Shown here piece by piece: positions 3,705 through 30,489 of a stretch of 32,716 nt of DNA. A model generated the notes under the pieces. That model searched no databases. It saw nothing but the letters and a program-made list of their open reading frames with translations, and was not told the origin of the DNA. The stretch is from Chromera velia. Taxonomy: Eukaryota > Sar > Chromeraceae. The DNA lies in contig JAHBMJ010001290.1 in assembly GCA_018398765.1 (NCBI GenBank), positions 1-32,716 on the forward strand, given 5' to 3'. A program made the position numbers and the translations under genes. Positions within the stretch are counted from its first letter, which is position 1. Every line of letters begins with the position of its first letter.

Positions 3705-4386
3705 ATGCTGTTGTTCCAGGTGGCGCTCCTCTGCGGAGGAGTGGTCACTGCCGTGGTTTCAAGCATTGGTGGGACGTCTACTACTCTCTCGCAGTTCTCG
3801 AGCGCCTCCAAGCGTCGGCCTGAGTGGTTCGAAGGGTGTCACGCAGAGACGGAGAACTTTTCTTTTTCTCCCTCTACAGACGCCGGGAAGGGAATCGGGG
3901 GCAATCACGTTTCTCGAAATTTTGAGTTTGTAGATGAAGAAAAAGGAGGAGAGGATGAGGACCAAATTCAAGTCATCACTCTTCAAGACGGGGGCGGGGG
4001 TTGTGGAGAGAAGGAGATCCCATTGGAGTTTTTCGATGGGGACGTCAAACCTTCCGTTTCCTGTTGCCCTGTTGCATCGAGACAGTGCTCCGGGTGTGTG
4101 AAATACGACAAGTCCAAGAACAAATGTGTTCAATGCAGACCTGGATGGGTCTCGATGTGTGCGAACAGCGCGTGTAAAGAGAGATTGTGCGTGTCTTGCA
4201 AAGATCTTCCTTATGCGGACACAGACGGACAGAGCTGCCCTGAGATCTGTCCGAAAGAACCACGCTTACTGACGAAGAAGGAGACTTCGGATATCAGAAT
4301 GAAGGGAACAGAAGGGATCTCTGCAGACATCGCCTGCTGTGCCTGTGGAGGCGGGATCAAACAACCAACACCGTTCTCGTACAGCG
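3705..4386 (+). CDS. Exon 1: signal peptide and Cys-rich region
   Basis: Residues 1 to about 20 form a hydrophobic signal peptide. After an acidic, Ser-rich spacer, residues about 118-216 are Cys-rich: spaced pairs such as CSGCV, CVQC and CVSC resemble furin-like or EGF-like repeats. These are followed by YADTDGQSC and a closing ACCACGGG. That last signature recurs, from memory, in predicted extracellular proteins of several protists; I cannot name the family with confidence. The exon ends at 4386 in phase 1, using an unusual GTCCGT donor. I chose this donor because it continues directly as [15 protein letters not shown] in exon 2. An in-frame ATG exists upstream at 3606, but it would bury the signal peptide. 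Confidence 0.7.
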
Positions 4387-5259
4387 GTCCGTACCACCTT
4401 TCAGGCTACCTCTATACACAATCGTTCATCCACCGCTTTGCGGCTCTGCCCTTCTCGCTCCCTCCGCTTTTCTGTGTGCACATGAATGAAAAGATAGTAG
4501 GAGCATTCAGGGGAGCCTGGAAAAAAGGAAGAGGCACACCCTCCGTACCTCTCTTGGACAGTTGTTCCGGTCTCCTTTCGAGCATGCACTGCTGAAGTCT
4601 CTTCTGACCCTCACGTCTCTCTGACCCAATTCATGAGCAGCTCTGTCCTCCTTAAAGTTTTCGTATTCTCTTTCGGCTTTCAGAAAGGATCTCTCCTGGC
4701 TTTTCTATGCGCAGATTCTTGCGAGAGATCAGCGTCCTTCTGTCCTACGCCACGCCGCCCGTCTCTTTCTTTAGAGTCCTCTCCTGTTGAATCGACAACT
4801 AACCGAACGATTCACTCTCTTTCTTTAGAGTCCTCTCCTGTTGAATTGACAACTGACTGAACGATTCACTGCGCAACTGACTGTCTGTGTGTTCTGTGTT
4901 GTTGAACGTCCGTATGGCTGCAGACAGTGTCGACCTCCGACTGGGTGAGAAAGTTGAGATCTTTCCCTCACCAAGGACCGCCTCCCACTACGCCGTCTCC
5001 TCCGACTGTAACCTCCAGGTATATAGATAGATAGTCAGGTGTGCGTCCATTGGTGTCTCCCAATTTGTCTCGTAAATGCACCTAGCATGAAGAACATTCG
5101 AACACTTTTGACGCCTGCAAGACAGTGCGGATGTGTTCTCTGAAAGAGACCAGCATCATTCCCCTTCACGTCCCCTCTCCTCTCCTCTCCTCTCCTCTCC
5201 TCTCCCCTCCTCTCCCCTTCTTGCAATCCCGATTTGCGGCCCTTACAGTCTGTCGGTCC

Positions 5260-5300
<41 letters not shown>

Positions 5301-8300
5301 CCTCTCCCTCTCCCTCTCCGTCTCCCTCTGTGTGTGTGTGCGTGTGTGTGGTCATGTGTGGTCGCTCTCTGTCAGCAAACCGACGAGGAAGAGTGAAAAG
5401 GTTCCCCTGCCCCGCGAATGACTGTCGTACTTTCCCTCATCGTCCCTTTATCTACAAGTGAGTGCGCGCGGAGCCGAGTGTGTTCTTTGGGAAATGTGCC
5501 CCCCCATCAGTTCTCAGTTGTCTGGCACGTACCATTTTTGGAACGCAGGCACGCCTTTAGTCCGTCAGTGCGCAAAAGACTATCGGACACCTTGAACCAT
5601 CCATGGAACTCACTTCCCGGAAGCGGTTCGGTTTGGCACGATGTATTGTCTATCAACTTTGCTCCACGCGATGTTTGCCAAACTAACATTTGGCGGTGGC
5701 AAATTTTGTCACGGGATAATGACTTACTTGCGTCAGATATGCATGCATGATCTGGAATGCTCCCTTCCCTTGCTCGCATGCAGGAGTTCGGCCTGTCTAT
5801 TGATTCACGCACAGGGGAGATCTCGGGGAGCGCCTCTCAGGAGGAGGCCTTTGAGGTATCCTGTCGGGTCTCTGCCGTAGAGGATCCAGAGGAGGGCAGG
5901 ATGTTCAACGCCAGCCTTCATTTGAGATTCCTCCCTTACACCTACGAACACCAGTCCATTCTCCTTGGACGTCAGTCAGGAAGATGCGGACAGGAGAAGA
6001 AATAAAGGGGGGGTGCAGATGAGCTAGAAAATTAAGGCGTGCTCTCTCTCTCTCTCTCTCTCTCTCTGATGTTTTCCGTCTGCTCGATCATCAAAGTGAC
6101 CGTTTTCTTTCTAGAGCATTGTGGATGAGAACATTGATAAGGGGCAGAGTCATTTTTGAAAACACCTTTCCTTTCTGAGTCTGCTTTGCAAGCTTGCTAA
6201 ATTCACCGGCCTTCCTCACTCCACTCTTGTCTGTGTTCTGACCAGACCATCATTTTGACATTTCTCTCTGTGCCCAAAAAGCCTCCCTTTCCTTTCTTTT
6301 TGCCATTTCCGTTCAGGAGGGGAGGAGCTTACTCTCAAGATGAGTAAAGGGAGGGAGCCTGTGGCGGGTTCTTTCAAAATTGACTGCAACCCGCAGCTGG
6401 ACTGGCTGGACACAAAGAACTTTGCAGAGAAGGGGACACTGAGGGTCAAGAAGACTTTGCCGAAGTGGGGAAGTTTTGGCGGTCTGTCCTCTGACAGGGG
6501 TGACATCGAGGAGGAGCTTCACTCGCAAGGGTTCAACAGAACCGACGTAGGCATAGACCTCACAACCGCCTCTGCCGGGAAATGCCAGTGAGTCGAGCTG
6601 CACGCCATGCATCCTTGTTGTGGCAGTTGATTGATTGATTTGCCGTCTGTCCGTTTATGCAACTGAAGGCCTTCTCTCTCCCTTCTTCTTCTCGAGGCAT
6701 CAGTCCTCTGCATGGACGTCCCCCTCTTGCTTTCTGCTGCGTATCTTTCTCAGGTTCAAAAAAGAGAAATGCATTCATCACATGCCTTCCTTCTCATCGG
6801 CATGTAAGCCTTTTTCGCTGCATTCCTCCTTGCGCCCCTTGGATTATGTCGTCTTTCCCCCTGCATGCAGGGTGAGGCTCCTTGAAGGGGGGAAGAAGAA
6901 CGACACAGAGGTCCCAGGGCTTGCAGACGTGAGCACGACCCAGGAACACAAATTCAATGTTGTGGCGATGCTGAGGTCCCGATGGAGGTCCATTGAGTAT
7001 CCCTCCAGAGGACTTCGCCTGACTGCCGGACTGCGACTGCACGCCTCCAGAGGGTTCCTTCCCATTAGCCCCCCGTCGTCTTCAAGGATCATGGCCCCTG
7101 TGCTCTTCACGCTTTCTTGCAAAGACAAGAGGGTCACCCACGAGGTGAGGGAGGGAGGATTCACGCAGTAGGCAGTTCATTCCGAGAAGATGTGCGTATT
7201 AATTTACAGTGCCAAAATGAAACAATATAAGTTTAGTCTCTCTGCACAGCCGAGACAACAGAGTCATGCTCGAGGCGCGTCGTGAAGTGATAGGGTGTTT
7301 AATTCCGGTGTTTGCTTCTCTACTGCTCCGCAGATTTTGTGCTGAGAAAATCTTGAGCTCTCTTTCTTTCTTTCTTGTTGCTGGAGGGCTCATCAGAACG
7401 AAGGACGGGTTGGAATGAGAAACCTCGAGGAGGAGAAGAAGAAGAAGAACAGAAGTAACAGAAATCAGAGTGAAGAAGCGAATGCGGGGGCATGTGTATT
7501 CATTCATGCAAGAATTGGTTCTGTACGGGCGGAGGGATCAGATCACCCATGAGAGAGAGAGAAAGAGAGAGAGAAATTAGACCGATGACCCACGCCGGTC
7601 TTCACTGGCACAAACAAGATCGCTCGTCTTCCATTCACCATCAGTCACTCAGTACCAGAAAACACGAAAAGAGGATCGGATGGAATGCGGCCCTAACGGG
7701 GAAGCTTTCAAATGAGCGGTTTCGCCAATGCCTCCCAACTTCATCCCCCCCCTCCCTGCAGCTGAACACCAACTCTGTTGTCTTCACAACCGACAAGGGG
7801 CGCAAGTTGACTCTTTTTGACTTCGACGCCCTCACAGGGGAGGTCTCTGGAGGCCCCAGCATAGCGGTCCAGTCAGAGAGGGATGGGCTGCCGATGAAGG
7901 TGCGTCGGTCGGTCTGTCGGTCGGTGAATTTAATTGTGTGAATGGAGACCGGAGAGGTTGGCGGTCAGAATTGGTGTCTGCTCTTTTTTTAATTCTGTTG
8001 TGGCAGCATCAACCCTGAGCTCGACAACGGAGATTCAGGTTCAATGCCTCTGCGTACACAGACGTGCACATACGCACATCCGCAAATGCACCCGCAATTC
8101 AAACTGATCCCGATGCATGTCGTTGCAGTTCAACTCGAAGACCCAGAGGGGGGAGGCGACGTTCTCCTGTCGAGTGCTGGGTCGGGTTCTGCCGTCTACT
8201 CTGAGGGCAGACACGCTCCCGTGGATCCGATCAAAGACCATGACGTTCACAGTGCAGGTGGGAGGGGGGGGGGAGTTGGGTGGGTGGCGGACTGTGGGAA

Positions 8301-8430
8301 GCTTGGGAGAATGACGGGAGTGTGATTATGTGGAGAGACAGAAGGAGAGACGGGCCAAACCCAATGAAAAATTCAATCATTTTATTGAATACACACAGAC
8401 GCACAGACCCACAGAGTAGGGGACACCCAC

Positions 8431-8469
<39 letters not shown>

Positions 8470-9125
8470 CAGGAGCGCCGTTGCGGCAGTATGACTGCAT
8501 GCAGAAGGGGATCGCTAGAGGTAGGAAGAAATCTGGATCGATGGATCGATCGATCGAAGTGTGGAGAGAAAAAGAGAGAGGGAGACCAGCTTGAATTCCG
8601 AGCTTTCCGAAAAATCCTAGCTCCTTAATTCTTTCCGGAAGGAATCCCTTGATCATCGGCCCTCCCTCGCTCCCTCCTGCATGATGCCCTCTCATCTCTT
8701 CCCCCCCGTATGTCTTTTCTTTTCTTTTCGTTTCATTCCCTCTCTACAGGCCCCCTATAGCTGTCCTCCCATTTCTCTTTGATCTGTCTCTCTGCAGGAA
8801 AGCGACTCCTGGCAGCCGCTGGTGCTCCGGTCGAACCAGGTAGAACTCTGTGAGCTGCCTGATGGGGACGGTTCCGCGAACAATTGCAGGAGGGCCTGTA
8901 GGGCAGATCCCACCTGTGCGATCTTTAAGTACTACTCTAAGTCGAAGACCTGCAGGAAGGGAAGAAAGATCAACGGCGAGGGGAGAAACAAGAGACGTAC
9001 AAGGTCATTGCAAAGGAGATGCAATAGTCGCAGTTCCTTGTCGCCAGTCGCTTTCTTCCCTTTTCGTTCTTTTTTGCAGCCGTCCTTTCGGTATTCAGTC
9101 AAATGGGTCTGCACCGATCGTCCCT

Positions 9126-9157
<32 letters not shown>

Positions 9158-12100
9158 GTCCCTGTGTATCTGTATATCTACCTGTGCAACTTCCTCTTGC
9201 GCCCCTCTGTGTCCTTCCCGGTTTCTCTTACAGGTCCGTGTGGGCAGTCGCGAAGCTGACCAACAGCTCACCTGACACGACCTGCTTCCAGCTGGACATG
9301 AGAGATCAGGGTGAGGGGGTGTGTGAGAGGGAGGGCAGTCAAATGAATTCCTTCCTTGTCTGCTCCTGGTGACTGCCTGAATTTCCTCATTTAGATTCCT
9401 TTCCTTTCCATACACGTCACTCTCTAGCTTCTTCCATTTGCCTTCCAGTCGAGAGATGTTGCGTGCACGCACTCCGCCAAGCAACCGAATTTCAGCAATG
9501 CGTTTCAGGAATTCTCTTCTAGAGCGTTTTCCCCCATCGTCTTCCGCTCCTTGCTTTTCTTTCGTCCTCTCTGCTTTCTTTCGTTGTTTCCCTTTCTAGA
9601 TCCTCATTTCATTTTGCTTCTTCTTTGGTCGTCTACCTGCGCTCGCTCGTGTCTGTTGCTGCACAAGTCGGGCGGGTGCCCCTCCAAAACCTTTGTGCAT
9701 CTTTTTTTGCGTACCTGGCTGCACACGCGTCCTTAATTATGGCCGTTCCGTTCATGGATGAATGCAGGATGGCTTTCTGGGACTTTCTGTCCCATCGTGA
9801 GGGATCTGGCGGCAAACAGCTACGTGTACCAGAAAAACGGGTACACCCCGGAGGACGTTGCCTACCTGCTGAAGGTGTGCGGAGAAGTGATCTGACTGAA
9901 GCATCAACGATCTGCCAGTTTCTTCACAGTTCCCTCTCTTGACTCCTCGTCACCTGATTTCTTCGACTTCCTTCTTGTCTGCGCCCTCCCTCGGCCCTGT
10001 GCATAAGCAGACATAAAAAGTCAAGAAGCCTTCAGAAAGCTAGGTAAAAAGTCGGGGGGGCGCACACAAAGGTGGAAATGGAGAGGAAAGAATGACACTA
10101 TTCTTTCTGTGCAAATTCGAAATTGGAAGTTCGTGTCGTCATGTCCCTCCGTGCGATCTTTAAAGGTATACCGACATCGCCATGACGACTTTCCTTGCCT
10201 TTTCCTTTCTGCGCTGACCTTCTTTGAAAACAAAATTTGCGGTGCCCCTTCTAGCTCCCCACTGGTTCCTCATCGTGCCCTTCCCCCCCCCGCCTTTCGT
10301 GCAGTTCCTCCCCGAGAGAGAGGCGAAGACCAGTTGCAGGAAGGGCAGCTGGATCGTCAAGCAGGTGGGTCAGTCGGGCACATCTCCATTATTTGGAATG
10401 ATTTATTGACGGAGAGGAAGGAGAAATCGAGAAAAAAAAAAAGAAGCGTACTAAGAACGAGGAGGTGAAGAAGCAAAGGGCCAAGTCGGAAAGCGTAGGA
10501 GGTTCCATTGAAAGACAGTGAATTGAAGAGAAAGAGAAAAGATTTATTACCAATGAAGTTGTTTCTCTCCCGGCTTGCATGCTTGTTTGTTTGCCTTCTC
10601 ATCAGAAGCAAAAGCATGCGCTCCCTGTTTTCCTTTTTCTCATGAGGACCCCCCCCTAGACTTTCAAAACACAAGCTGCACAGTCGTTCTCTCTGCGGCC
10701 TGCTTTCCTCCCCATTGGTATCTTTCTCTGTTGTCACTCTCCGTTCGTGCAGGGACACCCGTCCACCGACTTTCTTGACGACAAGACGGCCACCTTCCAG
10801 CTGAGAGGAGAGACGCTCGCCTGCCTGCCCCCTCGCCATTTGTCGAGATTTGCTGGTGCAAAACAGCCAAGGAGAAGTAAGTACTGGAAGACGTCAAAAA
10901 GAGGCCAAACGGATCGACATGAAGAGACCAATTGCTGATTGATTTACGAGAGAGAATGGACGCCTGATCGATCCACCCCCTGCAACGACTCTGCGGTCTT
11001 TTGAAGAACACGTCAAAACAATCAGAAGTTGACAGTCAAATACGGCCTGAATACATGCTAATTCTGACTTCTCTTCTCGTTCTTCTGTTCCCGTCCGGCT
11101 CATTCCAGCAAAAAGGTCTGCTGACAGACAAGCTCAGCTCCTTGTTTTCATACGTCTCACGACTTCATCTCTGCGTCATTTCATTTGGTTTCCTGCAGGC
11201 ACAGCAAGCCTCCGGGTGTTCTTCGACGACAGCCAAAAGGCCTCTTTGAAGGCGAACAAGCAATCCACCAGCTGGGAACTGACGCGGTCGCCCCGTCCTT
11301 GCGGTAATCCCCTCCTTCCCGCCGCCGCTGAGGAGGCCAAGGAAGAAGAGGAGGCGGCAGAAGGATCCTCGACGGCTTCTGAGGAGGAAGGGAAGACGAA
11401 TGACCAGAGCTCTGCTGTCCAGGCTTTCCGCATTCACGACATTGACGTCCCCTCCCCCCCCGGATCTCCAGCTTTCTGGCTCGACGCCTGCGAATGTTTT
11501 CCTGTCGAGTGGGGTCCGACTCCGCCCGTGAGTGCCCAACAGTTTGCGAAGCTTCCGAATTCGGGAGAAAACAGAATACCCGCTCTCACGGGGCCGCCAC
11601 AACTGATTGCAAGAGGCAAACTGATGTGCGTGCTGAAGCATCTAATAGTCAGTGTAGCGACAAATGACATGGCGATCTGCAGTCAGAAGTGCAGGGATGA
11701 CTCGGGATGCAACTTTTTTTGGGTCGGCATGGCGGCGGGCGTGGGTCAGTGCCGTCTCTTCTCCTCGTGCGGCGCCTTGATGACAGAGACGGGCACAGAG
11801 AAGCATGTGACCAACGGAGCCCTGTACGGCATCGCGAGGTACGACACCTGTCTGATTTCAGACCCCGGTCAGTCGTGTCGGTCAGACAGGAAGCCAGCCG
11901 GTCTGCCCATTCCTGTCAAATTTCTTTTTCTTTTCTCCGTCTTATTTTCCTTTTGGCTGGTGTCATTTGGATTGTGCATCTTCTACTCAGTTCTTTGCTT
12001 CTCTTGTGGGAAAAGAACGGACAAGGACCAGGAAGAGGAGAGGCACAGGACAAGGCTAGAAGGGTGCATTCACAGTCGTGACTCTCTTGCAGGCCGGTCT

Positions 12101-12370
12101 CTGAATCTAAAGTGTGACTGTCAGACTCACCTTTCCTGCCTTCCTGCCTGGTTTTATAATTGCAGACACCTGTATGGCCCAGACAAAACGCCGAAAGCTT
12201 TTGACCTCTGTCAATGTGGAGAGCTCCCACAGTCAGTCAGTGAGTGTGCTTATTCCCGAGCTCTCATTTTTGTACACGTTCCAGCTCGTGGTTGTGCTCT
12301 CTTCTCACTCAAATCTGCTCTTCCACTCGTTAAGTTTCAGTCACTCTTTACCCCTACTCGTCTCCCTCTC

Positions 12371-12414
<44 letters not shown>

Positions 12415-12521
12415 GCTTCGCCATCATGCAGAGCATAGTGTAGACATCGACCATACTATAGAGCACTGCAGGGAAAGAATCACTTTCTGTGTGTGACTTC
12501 ACACACAGAAAAACACCAACA

Positions 12522-12558
<37 letters not shown>

Positions 12559-17328: not shown

Positions 17329-17362
<34 letters not shown>

Positions 17363-20666: not shown

Positions 20667-20707
<41 letters not shown>

Positions 20708-23700
20708 CCTCCCTCTGTGTGTGTGTGTGTGTGTGTCTTTTTGTTCGTGAGCCTGTCTCCACCTTTGGTGTGTTTTCTGTTTAATTTTCTCGTGTTGTAT
20801 GCAGTCGTGAGGGACGGAGGGCTCTCGAGCTGGTCGAACTGGAGCTCCTGCTCGGTCACCTGTTCTACAGGGGTACGCACACGCACACGCACGTGCACAA
20901 ATCCCAAACCGTCGACGAACGGCAACAAATGCTCGGGAAAAACTCTGGAGACCAAATCCTGTGACATGGGAATCTGCCGTCAGTCAGTGAGTGCCTCCAT
21001 TATGTGTGAAAAAGAAAAATAATTCTGTATGAAAAGGAAAAAATGAATAGAGACCAAATCATGTGACATGGGAATCTGCCGTCAGTCAGTGAGTGCCTCT
21101 CTCCCCTCGGCATATTGCTCTGCAACTAGCACTCTTGTGTCCTTCACCAAAGTGCTCAGACATCTTTGGAGGCTCAAAGAATTTGCTTCACTTTTGATTG
21201 AGCAATACAGCAAGGAACGAGTCGCGATGCGTCTTGATGCGAAGGCAAATTTCCTTGCCCAGAGAGAGCCTCTCACCAGATACCGACAACACCAGACATG
21301 CACCTCTGTCTTCTTCTCCTCTACAGAGACAGACATACTAGAAGGATCTTTCAAGAAGAAGTAATGACTTAGACATATCAGGCTGCACTCAAGCACCTGT
21401 CTACACACTGTCTCTCTGACTGTCTGTCTGTGCTCGTCGATTACTCCATCATTCCCTGTTCGAGTAATTGGCTTGATGCCGTGTTCTCTCTACTGTCTGC
21501 CTGCCTGTCTGTTTATCTGTCTGTCTGTCTAGAAGAGGAGGGAAAGAAGTCTGTCTGTCTGTCTGTCTGCCTGTCCGTATGCATGCAGCCATCGACGGCA
21601 AATTGAGCGACTGGAGCGACTGGGGTAGGTGCTCAGCCTCCTGCGGCCTCGGTCACCAGGTGTGTGGGGAGGGAGGGGGCGGATTCTGGACTGCCGTGAG
21701 GTATCTGCCTGTTTGTGTTTCCGAAAGGGGAAGGATGGGTTGCTCTCTGTGTGTGCGTGGTTTGCCTTCGCGAAATGACTTTGGATACGAGGGAGAGAGA
21801 GAGAGAGAAAGAGAAGGGGCGGGGGGGTGGTAATAAGAATGAAAAAGGCGGAAAGAAAAGAGCAGAGGGATGGGAGGAAGGTCCAAAAGAAGGAAAGAAA
21901 AAAAACAAGGGAGGGAGGACTTGACTTGAAGAAGCAAATTCAAATACAAATTCGGATGGATGGATGGATTGATGGCTGTTGTTGCTTTCAGACGAGGACG
22001 CGTACTTGCACAAACCCTGCTCCGAAGCATGGAGGGAAGGACTGCAAGGGACAGGGGGAGACTACTGATGAAAGGGCGTGTAATCCCGATCCATGCCGTG
22101 AGTTTCTTTCTGTACTTGGTCGGCTTCTCTGTTGATCTCTTTTTCTTTCTCCCTTCCCACTTTGAGCCTCCTTCCTTCCTTACTTTTGATCCTTCCTTCA
22201 GGCTTTATACAAAGTCCATCCTCCTTTGATTGTCCGCAGCGCGCTCGGCGGTTCCTTTTGAAATTCTCTGTTTCTTTCGGCTTCTCGTTTTACGGTCACC
22301 TATCTCATTTGTTGGTCCGTTTTTTTTTCCCTCTTGTCTGTTCCGTGCAGCGGGATCCTGTCTGTTTGAGAGAGAGATCATGGAGTGTGAGCAGAAGAAA
22401 ATGCTCGGCGGAAGTGTCGTGGAGGAATGTGGAAGGTGTGAGGTCCTCCCCCACTGGTTCGGCATCTCTCGAAAACTCGCAAGGCCCCCTCCCGCACAGT
22501 TCGACTGGGGGGCGGCTGTCCAAGTCAGTGGGTTGCATGGGTAGTTTTTTGAGTTGTCAGCTAGGTGGGAAATGAGGTTGCTGCATCTGCAATGCAAGTC
22601 TGTAGCGAAGCATATTGCTGCATGTTCCGCGTGACTGTCAGTCTTCTAGGGTCTTTCCTCTTGGTTCCGTCGCTTCGCTTTATCAATAGTGTCTTGTGTA
22701 ATGGGGCGTGCTCAGGTGGCCCGGTCGTGTCATAATTTGTGCTGGGATGTATTTTTGTTTCCCTGATGGTGAGACTCCCCACCTGCAGGTTTCCTGTTGG
22801 CAGCAGCGATTTTCTCTGATCGACAAGAGACAAAACTCGGTGTCTGACTCCTTCGACCTCCACTGTGTCGATGGGAAGTGGATCGACAGGTTGGTTGGGA
22901 CCAGGGGGGGAAGCTGGGAAGGAGGACACTGGATGAGTGCTTGGCGAGAAAGAGGGTGCGTCGGTGTCTAAATGGTCAACGACTGGTTGTCTTCTCTTCC
23001 TAGTACTTACGTCTTTTTTTTTCGACCGCGGCTGGACTGAATCTTTCACCTGCTTCCACCTGCAGATACGGAAGCGAGGGATTCGCCAATTTTGAGTGTG
23101 CGGCATGCGTACAGGTGGGTGTGGGAAAAAGAAAGAAAAAAGAGGGGGGCAGGACGTTGTGATCCTTTTCTTTCTCAGCTTTCCTTTCTTTTTGTTCATC
23201 CGCCAAAGCCTGTTTCCTGCTCAGGTGAAACTCTTTCCGCGCTGCATGTATCAATCCCTCCCTACTTTCCCTATTCCTGTGTGTTGCGCGTGTCCGATCG
23301 TTTGGCTTCCAAGTTTGTTTGCTCCATGCGGGACACAATCTCATTCCGCCCATCGTATCAAATGCGGGATGGCAGTGCACCTTCATCGCAGTAGTGAATT
23401 TGGTCAATGAAGCGGGTGGGGCGGGAATTCTTCAAATGGCATTGGGTTGGCTTTCTTTTCGACCTGAATCGGGTTGGGTGATTACATCGGTATTCCGAGC
23501 TGTCTGCTGCTCCGTGTCGAATGCAGGCACGCTCTTAGTGCGCCTGCGCTTTGCCCGCAGGTTTCCATCCAGACATGCATGCATGCATGCATACTTGTAA
23601 AGGGAGGTGTTGTATAAATATTAATTACTGCATGCATGCCGTGGCGCATCATGCAGGTCGGCAAGCCCGAGCTCGGGATCATGGAGGGTCAGGGCACGGA

Positions 23701-25337
23701 CGCGCACTACTTTGGCTCCCGGATGCCCGTGCAGCTGTTGGTGCAGTCAACCGAGAGGGACGTCCACAGGGTCTCCTTCAGAAATGCTAGGAGGAAGAAG
23801 CAGCGGAAACTGTGGGGAGCCCCCTTTGAAGGCACTCAGGTTGCGCTTTCGGAGGAAGACGTCTTCTTTGCCTCGAGCGCTGCTGCAGAGGGAAGATTCA
23901 TGCTGGAGGGCCGAGGGGGAAATTCAGGCAGGTGTCTCCGATCCCTCAATGGGGCGATCTGGGTCAGTCAGTCAGTAAGTGAGCCTGGCTGTCAGTCGAT
24001 TTGTTTTCCATTTTCACAAATCGAAACGGCTGTGAGTCATCAGTGCAACGATACCCCAGAATTGCAGTTTCGATGGATGGATGGGCGGGGTACGTGGAGC
24101 TCTCATCGGTTCATTTTTTTTGTGTTCGTTTTGTCTAATAAATCGATTCGGATTTTCAATCGGTTGTTTCGTTCGATTTGTCTTTCTTTTCTCCTTTCCT
24201 CATTTCTTTTCCTCTTTTTTACTCCCTTTCTCCCCTGCGTTCATTTCAGAATGGCAGGGCGACCTGCGATGCCAACAGCGGGGAGCAGACGTGGGATGCC
24301 GACCTAATCGTGAAGTACATCATGGAGGCATCGATGGATTATGCTGCGAATACTGCCAAAGGTCAGTTGAAGGGATCGGGGAAAATCTAGGAACTTAGAG
24401 TCTTCCTTCCGTCAGAAGAGGCAGAAGAGAGAGGTGGAAGCGGAGTCTCGTTCCTGTGCCTTAAATGATTGTCTGTCGGGGGGGGTCCCACGGTTGGTCC
24501 AGCTCCCTTCTCTTCTTGCGCCCTTCCCCCGTTCCTCGTCAGTTGGGATCTTCTCGTACGGACTGCTGGGAAAGAAAGAAGGCCGTCATTTTTTGTTAGG
24601 AAACAAATGTACCGCCTCGATCGCTTCTCAAATCATTTTTGGAGTTGACAAGCTTTCTCTTTCTCTGTGCGCCAGTAACGGTTGCCGCCCGACTGTCGAG
24701 AGGCCCGGCCTGAGTTTTCTTCCTCCGTTCTGGTTGCGTGCAGAGCACAATTTCTTCTGGAATTCGGACGGAGACAAAAAGATGGCAGAGAAACTGATCG
24801 GATCCCCTTGGGTGACCGACGGTGGTGCGGTGAATTCGATCACTTTCAAGTCGGACGGCAAGCTGTCTGTGCAGAGCTTTGCCGCCGCCATGGGCGTGAG
24901 GACTCCGAAGACGACGGAGATGACCTGGAAGTTCAAAAAACAGGACAGCCTGGCAGTGGTCGCGTGTCCCCTCGGTCACGTGATGCAGAGCATTTTGGCC
25001 AAGAGCTACAAGAAAGACTCAAAGAACAAAAACTTCTTCAGCGAAATGTCCGGAACCTTGAATTGCGCTCCGTTGCTCACAATACCCTCGTGCCAGGTAT
25101 GCAAGCAAAAGAGCAACCAGCTTGCTCTGTGAATTTTAGTTTTCTAGTTGTTGTCATGAAGATCAGATTCTGTTGACAAAGTCTCTAGAGGCCTCGTCCT
25201 TCCTTTCCTTTCCTTTCATGCCCTTTCTGTCCCCCAAAGCCTGCCTGTCCTCCCTTAAGCCTCCGTCGGCTTCTTCTTTGTTGATTTGTCCTGCAAACAG
25301 CCACCATAACTTCCTTTGTGTTGTCTTCATTGACCTG

Positions 25338-25409
<72 letters not shown>

Positions 25410-26391
25410 GTGTCTGTCTGTGTGTGTGTATGTGGAAGAATTAATCGTTTGTTTCTTCCATTCAAGCTGTCCCAGTGGTGCCTAGCACCTGGCCATATTT
25501 TGTGAACTTGACCATTGTATGGATGTACGGGCCTGCAGATTCACACGATCAGCATGGGTGCCTCTGAAGCCCCTGACACGGACCCTCTGTGGGGCATCGG
25601 GACAGTAGGGTCGTCTGTGAGGTGCGAGGAAGATATGGTTTTGACGAACTTCACGATCTCCGTTCTTGGGAAGACCTCTGTGGTCTCTGGGGAATTTGCG
25701 TGCTGCCGTACGGGCACTCCGGGGGTTGCTTTGCAGGTGGGGGGGAAGTGTTTGTAAGTGTCTGTTTGTTGTGCGTCTTTTTATTTTCCCCACCGTTTTT
25801 GCCCTCGCTCATCTTCTTACGACAGAATGATCTCTGTTTGTTTGAACGTCTCTCTCGAGCGGCAGGCAAACACGGTCTATTGCTGCGGCTCCGTGTTGGG
25901 AGTCGACTTGTCTGAATGGGACAGTCTAACCCAGTACACAGACAACTGTTCGAAACATTGGAAGGTTTTTTTCTGGTCTTCTTCTCCTTTCTGTTTCTTT
26001 TTCTTCCTTCCAACGCTTTTTTCCTTGAGCTCTCTTTCTCTCTCTCTCTCTCTTTTCCTCTCTCGCAGGCTCTCCCCCAGATTTACGTGCCGAAGGTGGA
26101 ACTGCCGCCCTCAGTGGTGGGAGGATACGAAGCTTGGGAAGGCGAATACTGCCCTTATTCAAGGGACGGGACCGGAAGGCTTGTCTTTGCACAGGTGGGC
26201 TGGCTTGATGCTGATTCTCTCTGTGCAGTCCTGCACAGATGTTCCCTTGACCGGTCGTTGGTTTCGAAGTGGTGGTTTAACCGCATTTTTGCCGCCCGGC
26301 TCAGGTATTTGTTTGGAACCTTAGAATAAAGTGCTCTTCTCATTCTGGATGGGATTCGAAACGGGCTCATGTATCTGTGTGTAGTTGGGCG

Positions 26392-26433
<42 letters not shown>

Positions 26434-27137
26434 CGTGTGTGTGTGTGCGTGTGTGTGCATGGCTTCACCCGAAAAGTCCTCCGATGAAGACTACGCATGC
26501 ATTCACTTTCATGCAGAAAAAGAATTCTGTATGAAAATAAATGCATGTGTGCAGAAGAGCTCATGGCTTCACCCGAAAAGTCCAATGAAGACGAACCAGC
26601 TGCTTTTCGACAGAAACGAGGCCCTCTGGTGCCTCAACGGACTCAACAAGTGCCTTGCATCAGCAGCAGCACACCCTGCTTTGGCTCTGGCAGAGGAGAA
26701 CGCCGCGGGGCTGAGTCTGCTGGGCAGCGCCCGGTCGGAGCCGTCGAGTGACATTTCGGTTTCGCTGGTCTCCAACTTTGAGCTGCAGGTCAGTCAGTCA
26801 GCACACCTACCTACCTGCCGTCAGATGCAGAGTCCGTCTATACGCTTCTGTGTTGCTTGGCAGGCGGCCAGCCTCTTGCTCGAGCAGCTCATCCTTGAAC
26901 TCCTTCCACCACCTGCACTATAATCGAGAGGGAATCAACACTTCTGCTGTCCTTTCTGGACGGGCCTTTCTTGTCGGCCTGAGCCTCGCCCGACGGATGC
27001 ATGGCCGGGCTGCTCCTTTTCGCAAGCATGCGCGGTCGTCCTCTTGTGCCGAACTTTTCTCGTCTTCCAGTAGAGAGTACAATTGAGAGGAAGGCAGGGC
27101 GGCTTTGCGTGTGCGTATGTGTGTGTGTGTGTGCGTA

Positions 27138-27199
<62 letters not shown>

Positions 27200-30100
27200 A
27201 AGTGCGAGAGTGTGTGAGTGAGTGAGTGAGTGACTGTGTGTATGTATTAGTATCTTGTTCGTGTTTGCTTGCGCGGATCCCCTTCATGCATGCAGTCTCC
27301 AAAGGACAAGGAGGCCGGGGAATTCGAGAAGCCCCGACCAAAAAAGCCGGGGAAGATTCCCAAGCCCAAGCTGGCCTCCCTCTCCAAATTCGATGTTGAG
27401 GATGAGTACGCCCCCTACTGCCGAGCCGCAGAAGATCCAGACAAGTCATGGCCCCTCGTGAAGGACATGGCCGACCTGGACCCTGAACAGGGCACGATGA
27501 AAACCCAATTCGGCAAAATGGCGTCGACAGCAGACGAGGAAGGAAATTTCGTCTTCGACAGCGAGTTCAAGGGTCCTGATGGAGACTCTGCAAACGACAC
27601 CTCGATTGCCTCCAACCCCTCTACGGGGGGCGGTTCGACACCCCCGAGATCAAGTCGAAGGCCTTCGTCGCCTCTCAGAAGTTGGGCTCTCCGAAGTCAG
27701 GGATCAATTTTGATTCGGTCATGCAGTGCTTCGGAAATGAGGACACGAGAGAGATTACGACTCATGAGCTCGCCTACAAGATGGACATCGGCCAGCGCGT
27801 TCTCGAACGCTTTGTTCATCCCATCACAAACGCCGCTCTCTGCGGTCTGCTCTCTGCAGCTAAGCCCATAGCAGCCCCCTTCGGTGTCGGCCTAGAACTC
27901 GACCCTGGCGATGTTTGTTCTGACTGGCTCGACGTGGCAGTCAACGCTATTTCGTTTGGATTCGATCAGATGCAGGAGCAGCTGAGTCTCTTTGAGGCGC
28001 GTGCTGGCAACAACGATTGCAACGCTGCCAACCACGCCTTTGCCAAAGTGTTCTGCGACCTCGCGTGTATCACAGACGCGGTGCGGACAGGAAACCGCGC
28101 GATCATCTCCCGTCTCGAGGAGGTGTTTGAGGTTCTCCAGACGAACATGATGATGATGATGGAGTACCACGCCACGAACACGGACAACATGCTGAACTAC
28201 CTAGGAGATTTGATGGACTGGCACGGGGACCGTTTGCTCTTCTACATCAAAAAGTTGAGTGCCCAGGGGGGCGCCTCGTTTTTGCAGAGACTCAAGACCT
28301 GCAGGGATGGGTTGAAATTGAAGGGCGAGAAAGAGAAACAAAAAGTGGAGAGTGGGAGTGAAGATTTAAACAACGCCGCATCGTTGCCGTCTGATTCCCT
28401 CTCGGCATGCCTCCTGGGAGACACAGCCCCCTCCGCTCTGAGGGCTGCTGCCGACCCTTTGTGGGGCCTTTTCAAGAAGGCACTCACCCCAGATATTAAG
28501 AAGCAGGGTGCCGAGTGGGAGGCGGAGAAAGAGAGACAGAGAGGGGTGCACTTCTCCTCTTCTCTTGTCAGGCGATTGATGACGATGAGCAAGAGGGAGG
28601 CCACATCTTTTCTCTCAGATTTGACCTCTGTCTCCTCGTCTCTGATGGTGTCAACGGATTCAAGCATCCGAGAGTCCGCCCACCAACTCCACGAGGCCGT
28701 TGCGTCCCTTGATCCCTCTCATGCTTCTGCCCCTGTAGACGGAAAGGAAAATGAGACGAACACGGAAGAGGGGGAGAAGGGGGATGAAAAGAAAATGAAG
28801 GCATTAGTTGTTGCAGGGGAGCAAATTGAACGGCTTGTGAATGAGGCGGGGGGGCCTCTGAAAGATCGTATCGGGTCCCACGGAGCAGCTCTTGCTGCCC
28901 TGCTGGGACTTCGTTTTTTTCCTCCCTCTCCTGACTCAGGGGGGACCGTTACAGCCCCCCCGAACTTTTCGCAGAACGGGCAGGTCGAATTGAATTTCCC
29001 CCTCTCAGACACGGTCGAAAAAACTGTTAGCGAGAGACCGGCAGAGGATGTAGGTAGATCGTTAGCAGACGAGGTACGCCGGTCGAATGCCGCCCTTCTC
29101 CAACGACTGTCCGCTTCTGTAGAGCGTCACGATGGCTGGCTTTCCCTCTGGTCAGACAGACTGACACAGCAGGCAACGAGGGAGAGGTCGCTGACAATAA
29201 TGCACAGCAGCAGTAGCAGCAGACTGTTCCTGAATGGCGGCAGTCCGGGTGTGGGGGGGCTGGGTGTAGGGTCGACTTTGTTGGCAGGGGGATCTGAGGT
29301 GACACACGTTGAAATGACGATCCTTGAAAATGAGATTAGCCAGACGTTGACTGAGCTCGTCAGTCAATTGTCCGATCTCCGAGCCGCAGCCACCGCGTAT
29401 ATAGAAGAGGCCTCCCGTTTGTCCGCCCTCGAAACAGAAACCAAAAAATTGATAGAGGACTATATCGGATGCCAGACAGAGGGAGGGAAGGGAGATTTGA
29501 GGGGGGATTTTGACAAAATGCTCCCAGCGTGGCAGAGGATCGTTGCAGCACGCCAGGAAGCCGTGGCCTCGCTTCTTCGTGCGTTCTCCACAGGCACCCG
29601 GGCCCTGTCAAGAGTGAGAGACCAGGTAGTCATCAAGGGACTCTTCCCAAAGATGACCCAGGTTTCTCTGGCAAGGGTCGTAGCGGAGATCGAGGAAGCC
29701 CTCGCTTCGCTTGCCCACGGAGGCAGCGTAAAAGGCCAATCTGGGCCTCTCTCTGTCTTCATGTCTTACGTGCACCCGACAAATCGTACAGAGGCCCATC
29801 AGGAAGAGAAAGAGGAAGAGGGGCGACAAGCAGAAACCGAAACAACTGCGGGTTGTCTCTTCCAAAAGGTCCAGACCTCCGAGGGTGCAACAGCGCTTCG
29901 GAGGGTCATCGCGCGGTCTGTGGTTGAGTCCGGACCCGGGGTGCTCTCAGGCCTCCTCCGGGAGAGCATTGCCGTTGTCGCATGGCTGCACAGCCGCATG
30001 AGAAGAGAAGACGTGTGGGGCGACGCCTCGCTGCTGCAGTTCCACTCCAACGCTCCTCCGAGTCGGGCAGCAGCCGAGGGGAAAGGGAAAGAGAGGGGAG

Positions 30101-30489
30101 AGGGAAGGGGGGGCACTCTGTCTCAGCCTGTACATCGTCATCAAAGCCTAGCCTCTGAGACTGAAGCGCTTCAGGGGGGGGCTGTGGCTGTGGCTGAGGG
30201 GGCCTTTGAGGTCAGAGCTCTGCAGCTACAGCTGCGTGCCCCCGGTGGCTCAGCCTTGGAAGAAGCCCATGCGATGATGACGTCGCTCCTCCAAGAGACA
30301 GATCACTGGCGTGACAACTTTGTGCGCCTCCTAAAAGAACCATCCCAGTCCGAGAAAGTCACCTCTGTGTTCTCTGCAGACTCCCTGCTGAGTCAGACTG
30401 AGACGGGGCAGACCCTCTCAGAACTGGTGATGCGAGTGCAGAGGGCTGCAAAGGTGCTCTCTGCCTCTGCTCAGGTCTCGGACTGTTAG
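3705..30489 (+). CDS. Giant secreted multidomain protein: PIG-like, PAN-like, C-type lectin, dermatopontin-like, TSP1, helical C-terminus
   Basis: I built a 41-exon model in which every visible junction keeps frame. Exons: 3705-4386, 4924-5018, 5784-5970, 6317-6587, 6871-7144, 7762-7899, 8129-8257, 8798-9003, 9234-9310, 9768-9874, 10305-10364, 10753-10876, 11199-11867, 12166-12231, 12599-12742, 13331-13549, 14261 into the gap at 14440, 14905-14968, 15413-15547, 15845-16090, 16318-17095, 17407-17552, 18110-18211, 18391-18517, 18828-18894, 19293-19394, 20176-20249, 20805-20978, 21589-21659, 21992-22097, 22351-22523, 22789-22889, 23066-23114, 23657-23962, 24250-24361, 24744-25096, 25539-25736, 25866-25964, 26069-26194, 26555-26788, 27296-30489. 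The start is the first ATG giving a signal peptide ([20 protein letters not shown]). The product is about 3,590 residues with no obvious membrane anchor, so it is probably exported. It could in truth be two or more genes, but I saw no internal stop, promoter or new signal peptide forcing a split. The terminal exon has an apparent 1-nt frameshift near 27625. Confidence 0.7.
4762..4869 (+). repeat. 54-bp tandem duplication in intron 1
   Basis: Two adjacent copies, 4762-4815 and 4816-4869, differ at about three positions. Each starts TCTCTTTCTTTAGAGTCC and ends CGATTCAC. They lie wholly inside intron 1 and include a possible decoy acceptor-like CTTTAG in each copy. Confidence 0.8.
4924..5970 (+). 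CDS. Exons 2-3: first Ig-like (PIG-like) module
   Basis: Exon 2 (4924-5018) and exon 3 (5784-5970) join in phase 0 to read DCNLQ then [15 protein letters not shown]. The LSID..TGEISG pattern is the hallmark of putative Ig/cadherin-like beta-sandwich repeats (He_PIG type), in which a hydrophobic strand is followed by TG.ISG. The preceding segment ([16 protein letters not shown]) would be its N-terminal strands. The tail [12 protein letters not shown] has a counterpart in exon 7 ([12 protein letters not shown]), so this unit and exons 6-7 look like duplicates. Exon 3 ends with a GTCAGTCAGG donor in phase 1. Confidence 0.6.
5172..5352 (+). repeat. Microsatellite cluster in intron 2
   Basis: A CTCCT-type repeat occupies about 5172-5218. 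Pure CT runs over 5261-5298, passing into a CCCTCT repeat and then a GT repeat to about 5352. The pyrimidine strand is the coding strand of the gene. Open frames through it are Ser/Leu or Arg/Glu low complexity and not genes. Confidence 0.9.
6041..6068 (+). repeat. CT microsatellite in intron 3
   Basis: An uninterrupted CT dinucleotide run of about 27 bases, well upstream of the acceptor at 6316. Confidence 0.9.
6317..8257 (+). CDS. Exons 4-7: linker and second PIG-like module
   Basis: Exons 6317-6587, 6871-7144, 7762-7899 and 8129-8257 chain with phases 1-2, 2-0, 0-0 and 0-0. Exons 4-5 encode a region I do not recognise, with motifs [26 protein letters not shown] and [13 protein letters not shown]. 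It looks like beta-rich extracellular sequence with sparse cysteines. Exon 6 then reads [15 protein letters not shown], a second TG.[IV]SG beta-sandwich signature. Exon 7 ([12 protein letters not shown] ... KTMTFTVQ) parallels the end of exon 3. The junction of exons 4 and 5 splits a Gln codon (CA|G) after AGKC. Confidence 0.6.
8435..8463 (+). repeat. GA microsatellite in intron 7
   Basis: An AG dinucleotide run of about 29 bases, opposite in strand sense to most intronic CT runs here. A cluster of GATC/GATCGATC words follows at about 8537-8557. Confidence 0.9.
8798..10876 (+). CDS. Exons 8-12: PAN/apple-like module and Cys-containing linker
   Basis: Exon 8 (8798-9003) encodes [20 protein letters not shown] followed by a further Cys. 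This is the Cys spacing of PAN/apple folds, where a helix bearing C..C packs on a strand ending in C.. F.y. It continues through exon 9 (9234-9310; [20 protein letters not shown]) and exon 10 (9768-9874; [20 protein letters not shown]). Exons 11 (10305-10364; [12 protein letters not shown]) and 12 (10753-10876; [15 protein letters not shown]) resemble a small disulphide module with a C..G.W....C pattern, also seen in exons 31-33. The exon 8 donor (GTCATT at 9004) was chosen because only a phase-2 ending leaves exon 9 open; it is the least certain junction of this block. Confidence 0.55.
9125..9160 (+). repeat. CT then TATC microsatellite in intron 8
   Basis: A CT run followed by about five TATC units. 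Non-coding. Confidence 0.9.
11199..12231 (+). CDS. Exons 13-14: acidic stretch and second PAN-like module
   Basis: Exon 13 (11199-11867, flanked by phase-1 introns on both sides) begins [13 protein letters not shown], passes through an Ala/Glu-rich stretch ([14 protein letters not shown]), and then encodes a PAN/apple-like core: [40 protein letters not shown] and [10 protein letters not shown]. The helix C...C....C.FF.. and the later C..F..C fit PAN domains better than the copy in exon 8. Exon 14 (12166-12231, also phase 1-1) adds [15 protein letters not shown] and ends at a GTCAGTCAGTGAG donor. PAN domains bind protein or carbohydrate partners in other systems; the ligand here is unknown. 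Confidence 0.6.
12374..12556 (+). repeat. CT and CA microsatellites in intron 14
   Basis: A CT run covers about 12374-12406 and a CA run about 12524-12556, with a short TCTGTGTGTGACTTCACACACAGA-like hairpin between them near 12485-12509. Confidence 0.85.
12599..13549 (+). CDS. Exons 15-16: first C-type lectin domain
   Basis: Exon 15 (12599-12742) reads [19 protein letters not shown] then LALARIES, the N-terminal half of a C-type lectin fold: a strand with the first Cys, helix 1 with A..AC, then the LA.I.S strand. Exon 16 (13331-13549) gives [15 protein letters not shown], then [12 protein letters not shown] and [13 protein letters not shown]. This matches the WIG-like core, a QPN tripeptide at the position of the EPN/QPD sugar-selecting motif, WED in place of the classic WND, and the two closing cysteines. 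The calcium-binding side chains therefore look largely preserved, so sugar binding is plausible but unproven. Both exons are flanked by phase-1 introns. Confidence 0.8.
13086..13166 (+). repeat. Purine-rich GA and AAAG repeat in intron 15
   Basis: GA-rich sequence grading into AAAC and AAAG tetranucleotides. Non-coding, with purines on the sense strand. Confidence 0.75.
13642..13684 (+). repeat. GT then GA microsatellite in intron 16
   Basis: GT units to about 13662, then GA units to about 13684. Translated frames across it are low complexity and were discarded. Confidence 0.9.
14261..15547 (+). CDS. Exons 17-19: second C-type lectin domain, partly in an assembly gap
   Basis: Exon 17 starts at 14261 ([20 protein letters not shown], then [23 protein letters not shown]) and runs into the gap at 14440, so its end and donor are hidden. 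Exon 18 (14905-14968) reads [15 protein letters not shown], aligning with [15 protein letters not shown] of the first lectin domain. Exon 19 (15413-15547) reads [11 protein letters not shown], then [17 protein letters not shown], the C-terminal half. The first-domain QPN is KPG here and WED is replaced by EE, so the classical calcium site looks lost. This copy has one more intron than the first domain, between the two conserved W-rich segments. The exon 17 end must be phase 2 to fit exon 18. Confidence 0.7.
14440..14557. other. Assembly gap (118 N), flanked by a G run
   Basis: 118 unknown bases interrupt exon 17 and the start of intron 17. The sequence resumes as a run of about 14 G, which suggests a homopolymer or GC-rich stretch that stopped assembly. 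The run length may be an estimate rather than a measured size. Confidence 0.98.
15845..17095 (+). CDS. Exons 20-21: strongly acidic, disordered linker
   Basis: Exon 20 (15845-16090) opens [20 protein letters not shown] and turns Gly/Arg-rich. Exon 21 (16318-17095, about 260 codons) is dominated by Glu and Asp, with blocks such as [15 protein letters not shown] and [19 protein letters not shown] and almost no cysteine. The segment is predicted by eye to be disordered. In extracellular proteins such polyanionic linkers can bind calcium or basic partners; that role is inference. Exon 21 ends with a GTCAGTCAGTCGG donor in phase 1. The two exons together supply about 340 residues separating the lectin domains from the dermatopontin-like part. 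Confidence 0.7.
17163..17361 (+). repeat. CT, CA and GT microsatellites in intron 21
   Basis: CT then CA units occupy about 17163-17205, CT again to about 17224, and another CT run passing to GT lies at about 17330-17361. All are between the exon 21 donor and the acceptor at 17406. Confidence 0.85.
17407..20249 (+). CDS. Exons 22-27: dermatopontin-like repeats
   Basis: Exons 17407-17552, 18110-18211, 18391-18517, 18828-18894, 19293-19394 and 20176-20249. Exon 22 gives [25 protein letters not shown] and RRYRFK, completed by the Cys that opens exon 23. Exon 23 repeats the theme as [20 protein letters not shown], and exon 24 follows with SVSCFHG. Exons 25-26 give [19 protein letters not shown], and exons 26-27 give [12 protein letters not shown] and DHRTRIFYS. 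Dermatopontin repeats have W..N....W...C, then [AI]xGFxS, then DR.W.F.CC. The match in order and spacing is good, but the sequence is divergent. Dermatopontin is a small extracellular-matrix protein of animals that binds other matrix components; related agglutinins bind sugars. The exon 23 end uses the second of several GTAGG donors, chosen by frame. Confidence 0.55.
18207..18229 (+). repeat. GTAGG tandem repeat forming the exon 23 donor
   Basis: Four consecutive GTAGG-type units begin inside the last codons of exon 23. Each offers a GT 5 nt further on. Only the unit at 18212 keeps the frame into exon 24 in my model. Confidence 0.7.
19436..19502 (+). repeat. TTCC-rich microsatellite in intron 26
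   Basis: Imperfect TTCC and TTTC units on the coding strand of the gene. Non-coding. Confidence 0.85.
20637..20741 (+). repeat. CTGT, CT and GT microsatellites in intron 27
   Basis: Two blocks of CTGT units are separated by GACGATATAG, followed by CT and then GT runs, ending 60 bases before the TSP1 exon acceptor at 20804. Confidence 0.9.
20805..20978 (+). CDS. Exon 28: thrombospondin type 1 repeat 1
   Basis: A single phase 1-1 exon encodes a complete TSP1 repeat: [17 protein letters not shown], then [24 protein letters not shown]. The W..W motif is the usual C-mannosylation site and C..TC..G the usual O-fucosylation site, and all six cysteines are present. TSP1 repeats mediate adhesion in apicomplexan surface proteins such as TRAP and in animal matrix proteins. 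The donor is GTCAGTCAGTGAG. A second, intronic copy of this exon end and donor lies about 100 bases downstream. Confidence 0.85.
20949..21099 (+). repeat. 49-bp direct repeat of exon 28 end plus donor
   Basis: Copy 1 (20949-20997) covers the last 30 coding bases of exon 28, the splice donor and the first intron bases. Copy 2 (21051-21099) is identical except for one base and lies inside intron 28. A 53-bp AT-rich spacer (20998-21050) separates them. The second donor is therefore a decoy unless used as an alternative. Confidence 0.9.
21482..21575 (+). repeat. CTGT microsatellite in intron 28
   Basis: CTGT and CTGC units in two blocks around AGAAGAGGAGGGAAAGAAG, just upstream of the acceptor at 21588. 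Confidence 0.85.
21589..22097 (+). CDS. Exons 29-30: thrombospondin type 1 repeat 2
   Basis: Exon 29 (21589-21659) encodes [19 protein letters not shown] and exon 30 (21992-22097) encodes [18 protein letters not shown] then ERACNPDPC. Together they form a second full TSP1 repeat, joined in phase 0 and bounded on the outside by phase-1 introns. The W..W and C..SC..G motifs are intact. The RTRTCTNP core is shared with repeat 1 at protein and largely at nucleotide level, which points to tandem duplication. The intron between GHQ and TRTRTC is absent from repeat 1. About 332 bases of purine-rich intron separate the halves. Confidence 0.85.
22351..23114 (+). CDS. Exons 31-33: Cys-rich module, unrecognised
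   Basis: Exons 22351-22523, 22789-22889 and 23066-23114 chain in phases 1-0, 0-2 and 2-0. They encode [54 protein letters not shown] and [12 protein letters not shown]. The C...LHCVDGKW....C..C layout recalls sushi-type modules (C....L.C..G.W....C) but the spacing is not canonical. A similar C..GSW then L.C pattern occurs in exons 11-12. It sits directly after the TSP1 pair and probably forms its own disulphide-bonded domain. Confidence 0.55.
23657..26788 (+). CDS. Exons 34-40: extracellular region of unknown fold
   Basis: Exons 23657-23962, 24250-24361, 24744-25096, 25539-25736, 25866-25964, 26069-26194 and 26555-26788; all but the 35-36 junction (phase 1) are phase 0. I do not recognise the family. 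Visible features are [46 protein letters not shown] with EFACC shortly after, a [10 protein letters not shown], and [12 protein letters not shown]. The C....VL..F.I...F.CC arrangement resembles the dermatopontin-like units upstream, so this may be a diverged beta-rich repeat. Exon 38 has the weakest donor (GTTTTT at 25965), kept because frame and sense continue into exon 39. Confidence 0.6.
25340..25429 (+). repeat. Long CT microsatellite in intron 36
   Basis: About 67 bases of CT with a single GT interruption, then GTCTGT and GT units. Confidence 0.9.
26389..26457 (+). repeat. CT then GT microsatellite in intron 39
   Basis: CT units pass directly to GT units, ending at the first copy of the exon 40 edge duplication. 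Confidence 0.9.
26458..26592 (+). repeat. Direct repeat of the exon 40 start in intron 39
   Basis: The 22 bases starting CATGGCTTCACCCGAAAAG occur at 26458-26479 (intron) and 26562-26583 (exon 40). Similarity extends through ATGAAGAC after a 3-base length difference. The spacer between copies (about 26492-26561) is AT-rich and carries the working acceptor GTGTGCAG at 26554. Confidence 0.85.
27108..27235 (+). repeat. GT, GA and GTGA microsatellites in intron 40
   Basis: GT runs interrupted by CGTAT, then GA runs, then GTGA units. Translated frames across it are low complexity. Confidence 0.9.
27296..30489 (+). CDS. Exon 41: long terminal exon, Lys/Pro-rich start and helical C-terminal region
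   Basis: This 3.2-kb exon supplies about 1,060 residues with no intron, unlike the rest of the gene. It starts with a basic Pro-rich stretch ([14 protein letters not shown]), then an acidic one. The frame then shifts once near 27625. Beyond that the sequence runs open to TAG at 30489. The segment around [20 protein letters not shown] to [10 protein letters not shown] holds paired cysteines (NDCNAA, VFCDLAC) and is rich in Leu, Ala, Glu and Met, so helical; MMMMM comes from five ATG repeats at 28148-28162. Later parts have heptad-like runs ([16 protein letters not shown]) and Ser/Gly/Glu-rich linkers. No membrane segment is clear. I know no function for it. Confidence 0.7.

Follow-up and report, generated by a model that had tools for sequence, protein, structure and literature searches.

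A giant gene and its modules

The window, by which we mean the whole stretch of DNA analysed, is one entire contig (C1288) of 32,716 bases with near-even GC content; the genome totals 177.8 Mb over 4,040 contigs. The plus strand of the window carries a giant predicted gene of 40 exons and 39 introns that extends over 27 kb, from an ATG at 3705 to a stop at 30487–30489. The gene was modelled by dynamic programming and then revised manually, with splice sites, phase and the sense of the protein as guides. The automatic model was dropped in favour of the curated one: it missed the exon 18828–18894, broke up the PAN-like exon, got several splice sites wrong and placed a short intron over a frame shift. 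The features of the gene are listed below; C1199, C1293 and C3541 are other contigs of the genome that carry paralogs.

3705..30489, plus strand: entire coding region in 40 exons, about 3,535 aa, of which 2,583 aa lie upstream and 952 aa downstream of a frame shift at a G-run
3705..3764, plus strand: putative signal peptide, the first about 20 residues, at a hydropathy peak
3765..4386, plus strand: N-terminal region, the rest of exon 1, Cys-rich from about 3999; matches in C1199 and C3541; no Pfam family by profile search
4924..8257, plus strand: Ig-like (He_PIG-like) region, exons 2–7; 45–70% identical in C1199
8798..9310, plus strand: PAN module, exons 8–9; PAN_1 above cut-off
11615..11838, plus strand: PAN-like module, end of exon 13; exon 75% identical over 211 aa in C1199
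12599..13549, plus strand: first C-type lectin, exons 15–16; Lectin_C E 1.2e-11
14261..15547, plus strand: second C-type lectin, exons 14261–14438, 14905–14968 and 15413–15547; Lectin_C E 1.2e-7
15845..17095, plus strand: acidic linker, exons 15845–16090 and 16318–17095; an open frame with no Pfam match and no matched stretch in C1199 or C3541
17407..20249, plus strand: dermatopontin (DERM) domain, five exons; PF14704 E 1.6e-8; also on C1199
20805..20978, plus strand: TSP1 module 1, one exon; PF00090; WxxWxxC and CSVTC by eye
21589..22097, plus strand: TSP1 module 2, exons 21589–21659 and 21992–22097; PF00090; WxxWxxC and CSASC by eye
22351..23114, plus strand: Cys-rich module, three exons; no Pfam family
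23657..26788, plus strand: middle region, 476 aa; C3541 matches two stretches at about 35% identity; Pfam gives nothing at E 5
27296..30489, plus strand: last exon, C-terminal tail; intronless in the window, split by introns in C1293 and C3541
27623..27632, plus strand: G-run in the last exon, with a one-base frame change near 27,630
27700..28305, plus strand: conserved tail core of 202 aa with the signature CD-[IL]-x-C-[VI]-[ST]-DAVRTGN, from a nine-row alignment

How well is this exon model supported? AG closes every one of the 39 acceptors and GT opens 38 of the 39 donors, the one at 14438 running into an N gap; since the model required these dinucleotides, the counts are not evidence for it. 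TGCAG reads at 30 of the 39 acceptors, which we count as some evidence. The introns measure 104 to 781 nt (median 388), and those with a length that is a multiple of three (13/39) are at the chance value. In a hold-out test whose codon usage came from the tail and the first exon alone, 29 of the 36 internal exons taken in (exons 14261 and 14905 were left out) scored highest of the three frames in the one predicted; the seven misses start at 8129, 10305, 12166, 19293, 20176, 20805 and 26069. The exon phases join throughout the model, and the roughly 10.6 kb of chosen exons contain no stop or shift besides that at the G-run. A preliminary description of this DNA had claimed one continuous frame over 41 exons. 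The single spliced frame with consistent phases stands, but the exons number 40, and continuity is broken by the shift at the G-run and by an N gap of 118 bases at 14440–14557. The gap lies within an intron of the curated model. That it had removed the middle of the second lectin was considered and rejected: the exon in question sits at 14905–14968, where it was found through its counterpart on C1199.

Outside the gene, the window holds a short element at 2758–2962 with perfect 26-base terminal inverted repeats, of a MITE-like family (of the 63 matches listed, 26 at further genomic places cover at least 161 of the 211 queried bases, at 68–84% identity). On the minus strand are a 450-codon open frame at 188–1537, with no Pfam match at E 0.01, and acidic 47-residue tandem repeats at the contig end (32375–32716), whose weak match to Spt5_N (E 3.7e-5, just over the cut-off) may be compositional.

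What does the protein contain? From N- to C-terminus the order is leader, a Cys-rich and Ig-like N-terminus, PAN, a weak PAN-like module, two C-type lectins, the acidic linker, dermatopontin, two TSP1 modules, the Cys-rich module and a long C-terminal part. The preliminary description had named PIG-like, PAN-like, C-type lectin, dermatopontin-like and TSP1 modules behind a signal peptide, and had proposed a check against Pfam profiles. Run on the protein, the profiles found PAN, C-type lectin, dermatopontin and TSP1 over their cut-offs. The PIG-like module falls short: He_PIG (PF05345) reaches 13.3 bits (E 0.12) against a cut-off of 24. The PAN-like label holds for the first module, which passes PF00024 at 23.8 bits taken alone (cut-off 21.4, 28 aa matched) and at 30.3 bits in a larger region. 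The second, taken alone, falls below the cut-offs of both PAN_1 (14.2 bits against 21.4, E 0.039) and PAN_4 (16 bits against 27, E 0.013); KIAA0319_N reaches E 0.015 there. The C-type lectin profile PF00059 (cut-off 22.6 bits) is passed twice, at 45.7 bits by the first domain and at 32.8 bits by the completed second. The dermatopontin claim likewise held, with 35.3 bits against 28.3 over profile positions 7–137 of 152, as did that for TSP1, with 79.9 bits against 21.6 (PF00090, E 1.6e-22) in two stretches of the protein. A genome-wide search for DERM gave two hits and missed the split domain of the window, so that these two hits say nothing on rarity.

The EPN or QPD motif together with WND marks the calcium-dependent sugar-binding C-type lectins. 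Read by eye, the first lectin of the window shows QPN and YDS at the places of EPN and WND in the C3541 copy, and in the second lectin no EPN/QPD and WND pair was seen. The first lectin of the window copy may therefore bind sugars only weakly with calcium, or bind them differently. The lectin of the paralog (C3541:103387–103584), which has EPN and WND, looks mannose-type.

Both TSP1 modules, again by eye, combine WxxWxxC with CxxSC or CxxTC. In Cryptosporidium C-mannose and O-fucose are reported or expected at TSP1 sites of this kind, according to the part of the source drawn on here (PMC10034466). The first TSP1 exon has its last 31 bases, together with the splice donor, duplicated in the following intron (20948–20997 and 21050–21099, 98% identity), and the copy at 21050–21099 supplies a second candidate donor after that exon.

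Is the protein secreted, and is it anchored? The putative signal peptide at the start is supported by the ATG at 3705 and a hydrophobic leader whose Kyte–Doolittle hydropathy of 2.17 over 19 aa is the highest in the protein; elsewhere the highest 19-aa value is 1.48, and in the tail 1.45. By the same 19-aa windows no clear transmembrane segment appears in the protein, the C-terminus included. With such a leader and nothing above 1.48 elsewhere, a secreted protein without an anchor is to be expected. Pfam searches of the protein pieces gave no vWA domain (E up to 5, 1 and 1), and neither MACPF nor WSC in the pieces searched.

Paralogs, the single gene and selection

Might the model have fused two or more adjacent genes? 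It was made from DNA alone, its introns reach 781 nt, and long stretches between the modules have no paralog match, all of which leave room for a fusion. The paralog on C3541 argues against one. Between positions 95,863 and 120,075 of that contig's plus strand, the matches to pieces of the protein, running from aa 100 through to 3385, keep the protein's order at 26 to 72% identity per piece, so that N-terminal region, PAN region, lectin, TSP1, Cys-rich module, middle region and tail follow one another on one strand within 24 kb. At E 0.05 the unmatched parts are aa 1–99, most of 1121–1768, 2134–2251, 2439–2505 and 2787–3191. The second of these corresponds to the second lectin, the acidic linker and dermatopontin; a narrower search of C3541 recovered a weak piece of the second lectin (E 0.004), and dermatopontin was absent from that search too.

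A further paralog, on C1199, matches aa 30 to 1824 at positions 20,959 to 34,303, the contig ending at 34,575; its matches include PAN, both lectins, dermatopontin and one TSP1. Against this contig 24 of the 39 exon junctions could be judged: 22 have a match boundary no more than 12 aa away, and two run through. Three of the 24 are touched by cross-matching among TSP1 modules, and because of such cross-matching the run-through count from C3541 was not used. These junctions, and phases that join throughout, also tell against fused genes, which we consider highly improbable. Because the C3541 paralog keeps its matched pieces in the same order, 3705–30489 is best read as one gene. One gene with the modules first described is therefore supported by paralog order, less the PIG module that fell below its cut-off.

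How has this sequence been constrained? With overlapping pieces counted once, the comparison with the window gives pS 0.73 and pN 0.28 for C1199 (1,243 codons), pS 0.72 and pN 0.40 for C3541 (1,671 codons), and pS 0.76 and pN 0.32 for C1293 (799 codons). The weakest contrast in any single piece outside the TSP1 cross-matches is that of a C3541 piece, with pS 0.59 and pN 0.45 (aa 1994–2152 in another numbering). A near-saturated pS with a clearly lower pN indicates that the sequence is under purifying selection.

The one-base change at the G-run bears on whether the window copy is intact. It is either an assembly error or a real lesion, and in the latter case the gene could be broken. The paralog on C1293 has an intron at the very place of the shift, and the lectin motifs of the window are degenerate, as might be expected of a copy in decay. 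Yet the chosen exons are free of any other stop or shift, pN stays well below pS in the N-terminal part and the tail part alike, and homopolymer errors are common in short-read assemblies. We regard a decaying pseudogene as improbable.

The C-terminal part and its family

What is the tail? Against Pfam the window tail gives only matches at E 0.08 or worse, under the cut-off, and nothing better than E 0.07 came up for two paralog tails; among solved structures none was found at E 0.1. The pattern of the tail core had no match in viral contigs, and its 13 pattern matches in prokaryote genomes include no relative. A single-sequence AlphaFold2 model of the 202 aa core is mostly helix with a mean pLDDT of 39.6. 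The helical C-terminus of the preliminary description is thus weakly supported, by this one model.

The last exon of the window (27296–30489) lacks at least five introns present in the C1293 copy (C1293:5937–10028), and several present in C3541. Such a tail, intronless here and split in both paralogs, points to the loss of a block of 3′-end introns. Loss of this form is the pattern of intron loss driven by reverse transcriptase.

How widely does the C-terminal part recur? The census rests on two queries, the tail and TSP1 plus the Cys-rich module, and its counts are lower bounds. The tail query gave at least 29 matches on 16 contigs, the window included. On 13 of the 15 other tail-bearing contigs (C3590, C2193, C1162, C3643, C594, C2302, C36, C3541, C1183, C62, C541, C135 and C3829) the tail has the Cys-rich module on its 5′ side and on its own strand; the two modules together mark a family. 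The remaining two contigs are C1293, which has the tail only (within 1–11,528), and C3864, with a weak match that contains stops. TSP1 lies 5′ of the Cys-rich module in 5 of the 13 (C36, C3541, C62, C541 and C135), and none was seen on C594, C1183 or C3829 with the TSP1 plus Cys-rich query. Five contigs, C2193, C2302, C3590, C1162 and C3643, have a TSP1 match on the strand of the tail and 3′ of it, at a distance of 8.9 to 15.7 kb; this may reflect a permuted subfamily or a neighbouring gene.

The tail-core alignment has nine rows with a match of at least 100 aa, shorter matches from C1293, C3541, C62 and C36 having been left out. CD-[IL]-x-C-[VI]-[ST] reads in eight of the nine rows, DAVRTGN in seven and DWH in seven; C541 departs at all three motifs, and C1183 is cut before the last two. 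Elsewhere in the genome, C305:40955–47073 carries PAN followed by TSP1 and the Cys-rich module on one strand, without a tail match, and is a possible further relative. The plus strand of C215 holds a very long TSP1 array (35724–51082) with 25 of the 78 TSP1 matches of the genome.

The literature searched, with most subscription papers outside its reach, described neither a protein of this module order nor the tail family. The earlier statement that no protein with this order is known has therefore not been refuted, but most of the order recurs on two other contigs, so that it belongs to a family and is not a one-off.

Proposed function and comparison with known systems

What might such a protein do? 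The analysis shows the structure of the gene through comparison, which domains it encodes, their conserved order, purifying selection and the existence of a family; secretion, place, partners and function of the giant protein we infer. We think it somewhat more likely than not that the product of this one 40-exon gene, about 3,500 residues long, is secreted, lacks a membrane anchor and serves as an adhesive protein of a matrix or coat. The N-terminal part, with PAN, two C-type lectins, dermatopontin and two TSP1 modules, would display folds that in other proteins act as binders of sugars or matrix. The constant C-terminal part, consisting of Cys-rich module, middle region and tail core, would hold the protein, perhaps through self-association, in an extracellular assembly such as a cell coat, wall or mucilage. 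The front modules could then grip glycans, whether those of the wall of the cell itself, those on prey or bacteria, or those of a coral surface. Against this reading we count the QPN/YDS lectin, the one-base frame shift, the low pLDDT of the tail model, the dermatopontin domain, acidic linker and further stretches unmatched in C3541, and the C3541 piece in which pN comes near pS.

Alternatively, the protein might be a proto-invasion adhesin that the cell keeps in microneme-like organelles or in the chromerosome and releases for attachment to a host, for example coral, in the manner of apicomplexan micronemal proteins. In the parts of the sources drawn on here, its modules overlap those of the Cryptosporidium TSP proteins, which join TSP1 with PAN or C-type lectin (PMC10034466), chromerids are reported to have microneme-like structures (PMC4501334), and a study of coral-larva infection exists (PMC5864212). 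But the window protein has neither a clear transmembrane segment nor vWA, and among solved structures its TSP1 pair is not closest to apicomplexan TSP1, matching circumsporozoite protein, MIC2 or TRAP at E 6e-6 or worse. We judge this alternative unlikely. For the same reasons, and with the TSP1 pair nearer to animal proteins, the suggested bearing of the locus on the origin of invasion proteins is weak; the general idea, moreover, is already in print, as far as the part of that source used here goes (PMC4501334).

The reading as a secreted coat or matrix protein can be extended, tentatively, to the family. The C-terminal part may be an undescribed module (CD-[IL]-x-C-[VI]-[ST]-DAVRTGN, later DWH or DYH) on which giant secreted display scaffolds were founded in a chromerid before obligate parasitism, a constant assembly part bearing exchangeable heads (PAN, C-type lectin, dermatopontin, TSP1). 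Parasite lectin–TSP1 adhesins, for example those of Cryptosporidium, would then be reduced descendants or parallels of a coat system. This proposal is speculative, and we hold it to be rather doubtful.

How does the protein compare with known systems? Among solved structures its TSP1 pair scores far better with animal proteins than with the apicomplexan ones named above: the two consecutive modules match together with thrombospondin-1 (E 1e-37) and properdin (E 3e-35), a similarity at the level of the module only. The gliding adhesins TRAP and MIC2 also have TSP1 modules, but the window protein, without vWA and without a clear transmembrane segment near the C-terminus by hydropathy, is not TRAP-like.

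The apicomplexan CRMPs, many of which are said to occur in Chromera velia, are likewise large and modular, some with C-type lectin, He_PIG and coiled-coil labels; their conserved core, however, has transmembrane domains, of which hydropathy gives no clear one here (PMC9815656, in the part consulted). For chromerids themselves, one source, again as far as consulted (PMC4501334), reports expansions of SUSHI, EGF, TSP1 and vWA proteins and states the presence of CPW-WPC proteins; the present genome has 14 CPW-WPC matches on three contigs. These matches, the near-even GC of the window and its intron-rich gene fit Chromera velia, which we take to be the very probable source; a free-living relative of apicomplexans, as the preliminary description supposed, is consistent with this. 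The MACPF–WSC–DERM proteins described in that source on chromerids come from the same presumed organism and carry DERM, but there DERM is C-terminal and here it is internal, and MACPF and WSC were not found in the window protein (PMC4501334).

In Cryptosporidium parvum, CpTSP1–12 offer an overlap in modules: TSP1 is joined with PAN (CpTSP1, 3–6) or with C-type lectin (CpTSP11), C-mannose and O-fucose were found on TSP1 domains whose kind of site recurs in the window protein, and the authors suggest that some are lectin-type adhesins (PMC10034466, in the part drawn on). Unlike the present protein they belong to a parasite, and dermatopontin, Cys-rich, middle and tail modules are not named for them in that part of the source (PMC10034466).

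TSP1 mosaics themselves are known; what seems new is a predicted multi-module secreted TSP1 protein on a constant C-terminal part without description in the literature searched. Questions on the origin of parasite adhesins are best put to the photosynthetic organisms most closely related to apicomplexans, and here lectin, PAN and TSP1 modules appear already joined in one predicted secreted protein whose C-terminal part has no family in the libraries searched. With a conserved family signature and a paralog matched over most of the protein to hand, the choice between wall or coat building and cell attachment becomes testable.
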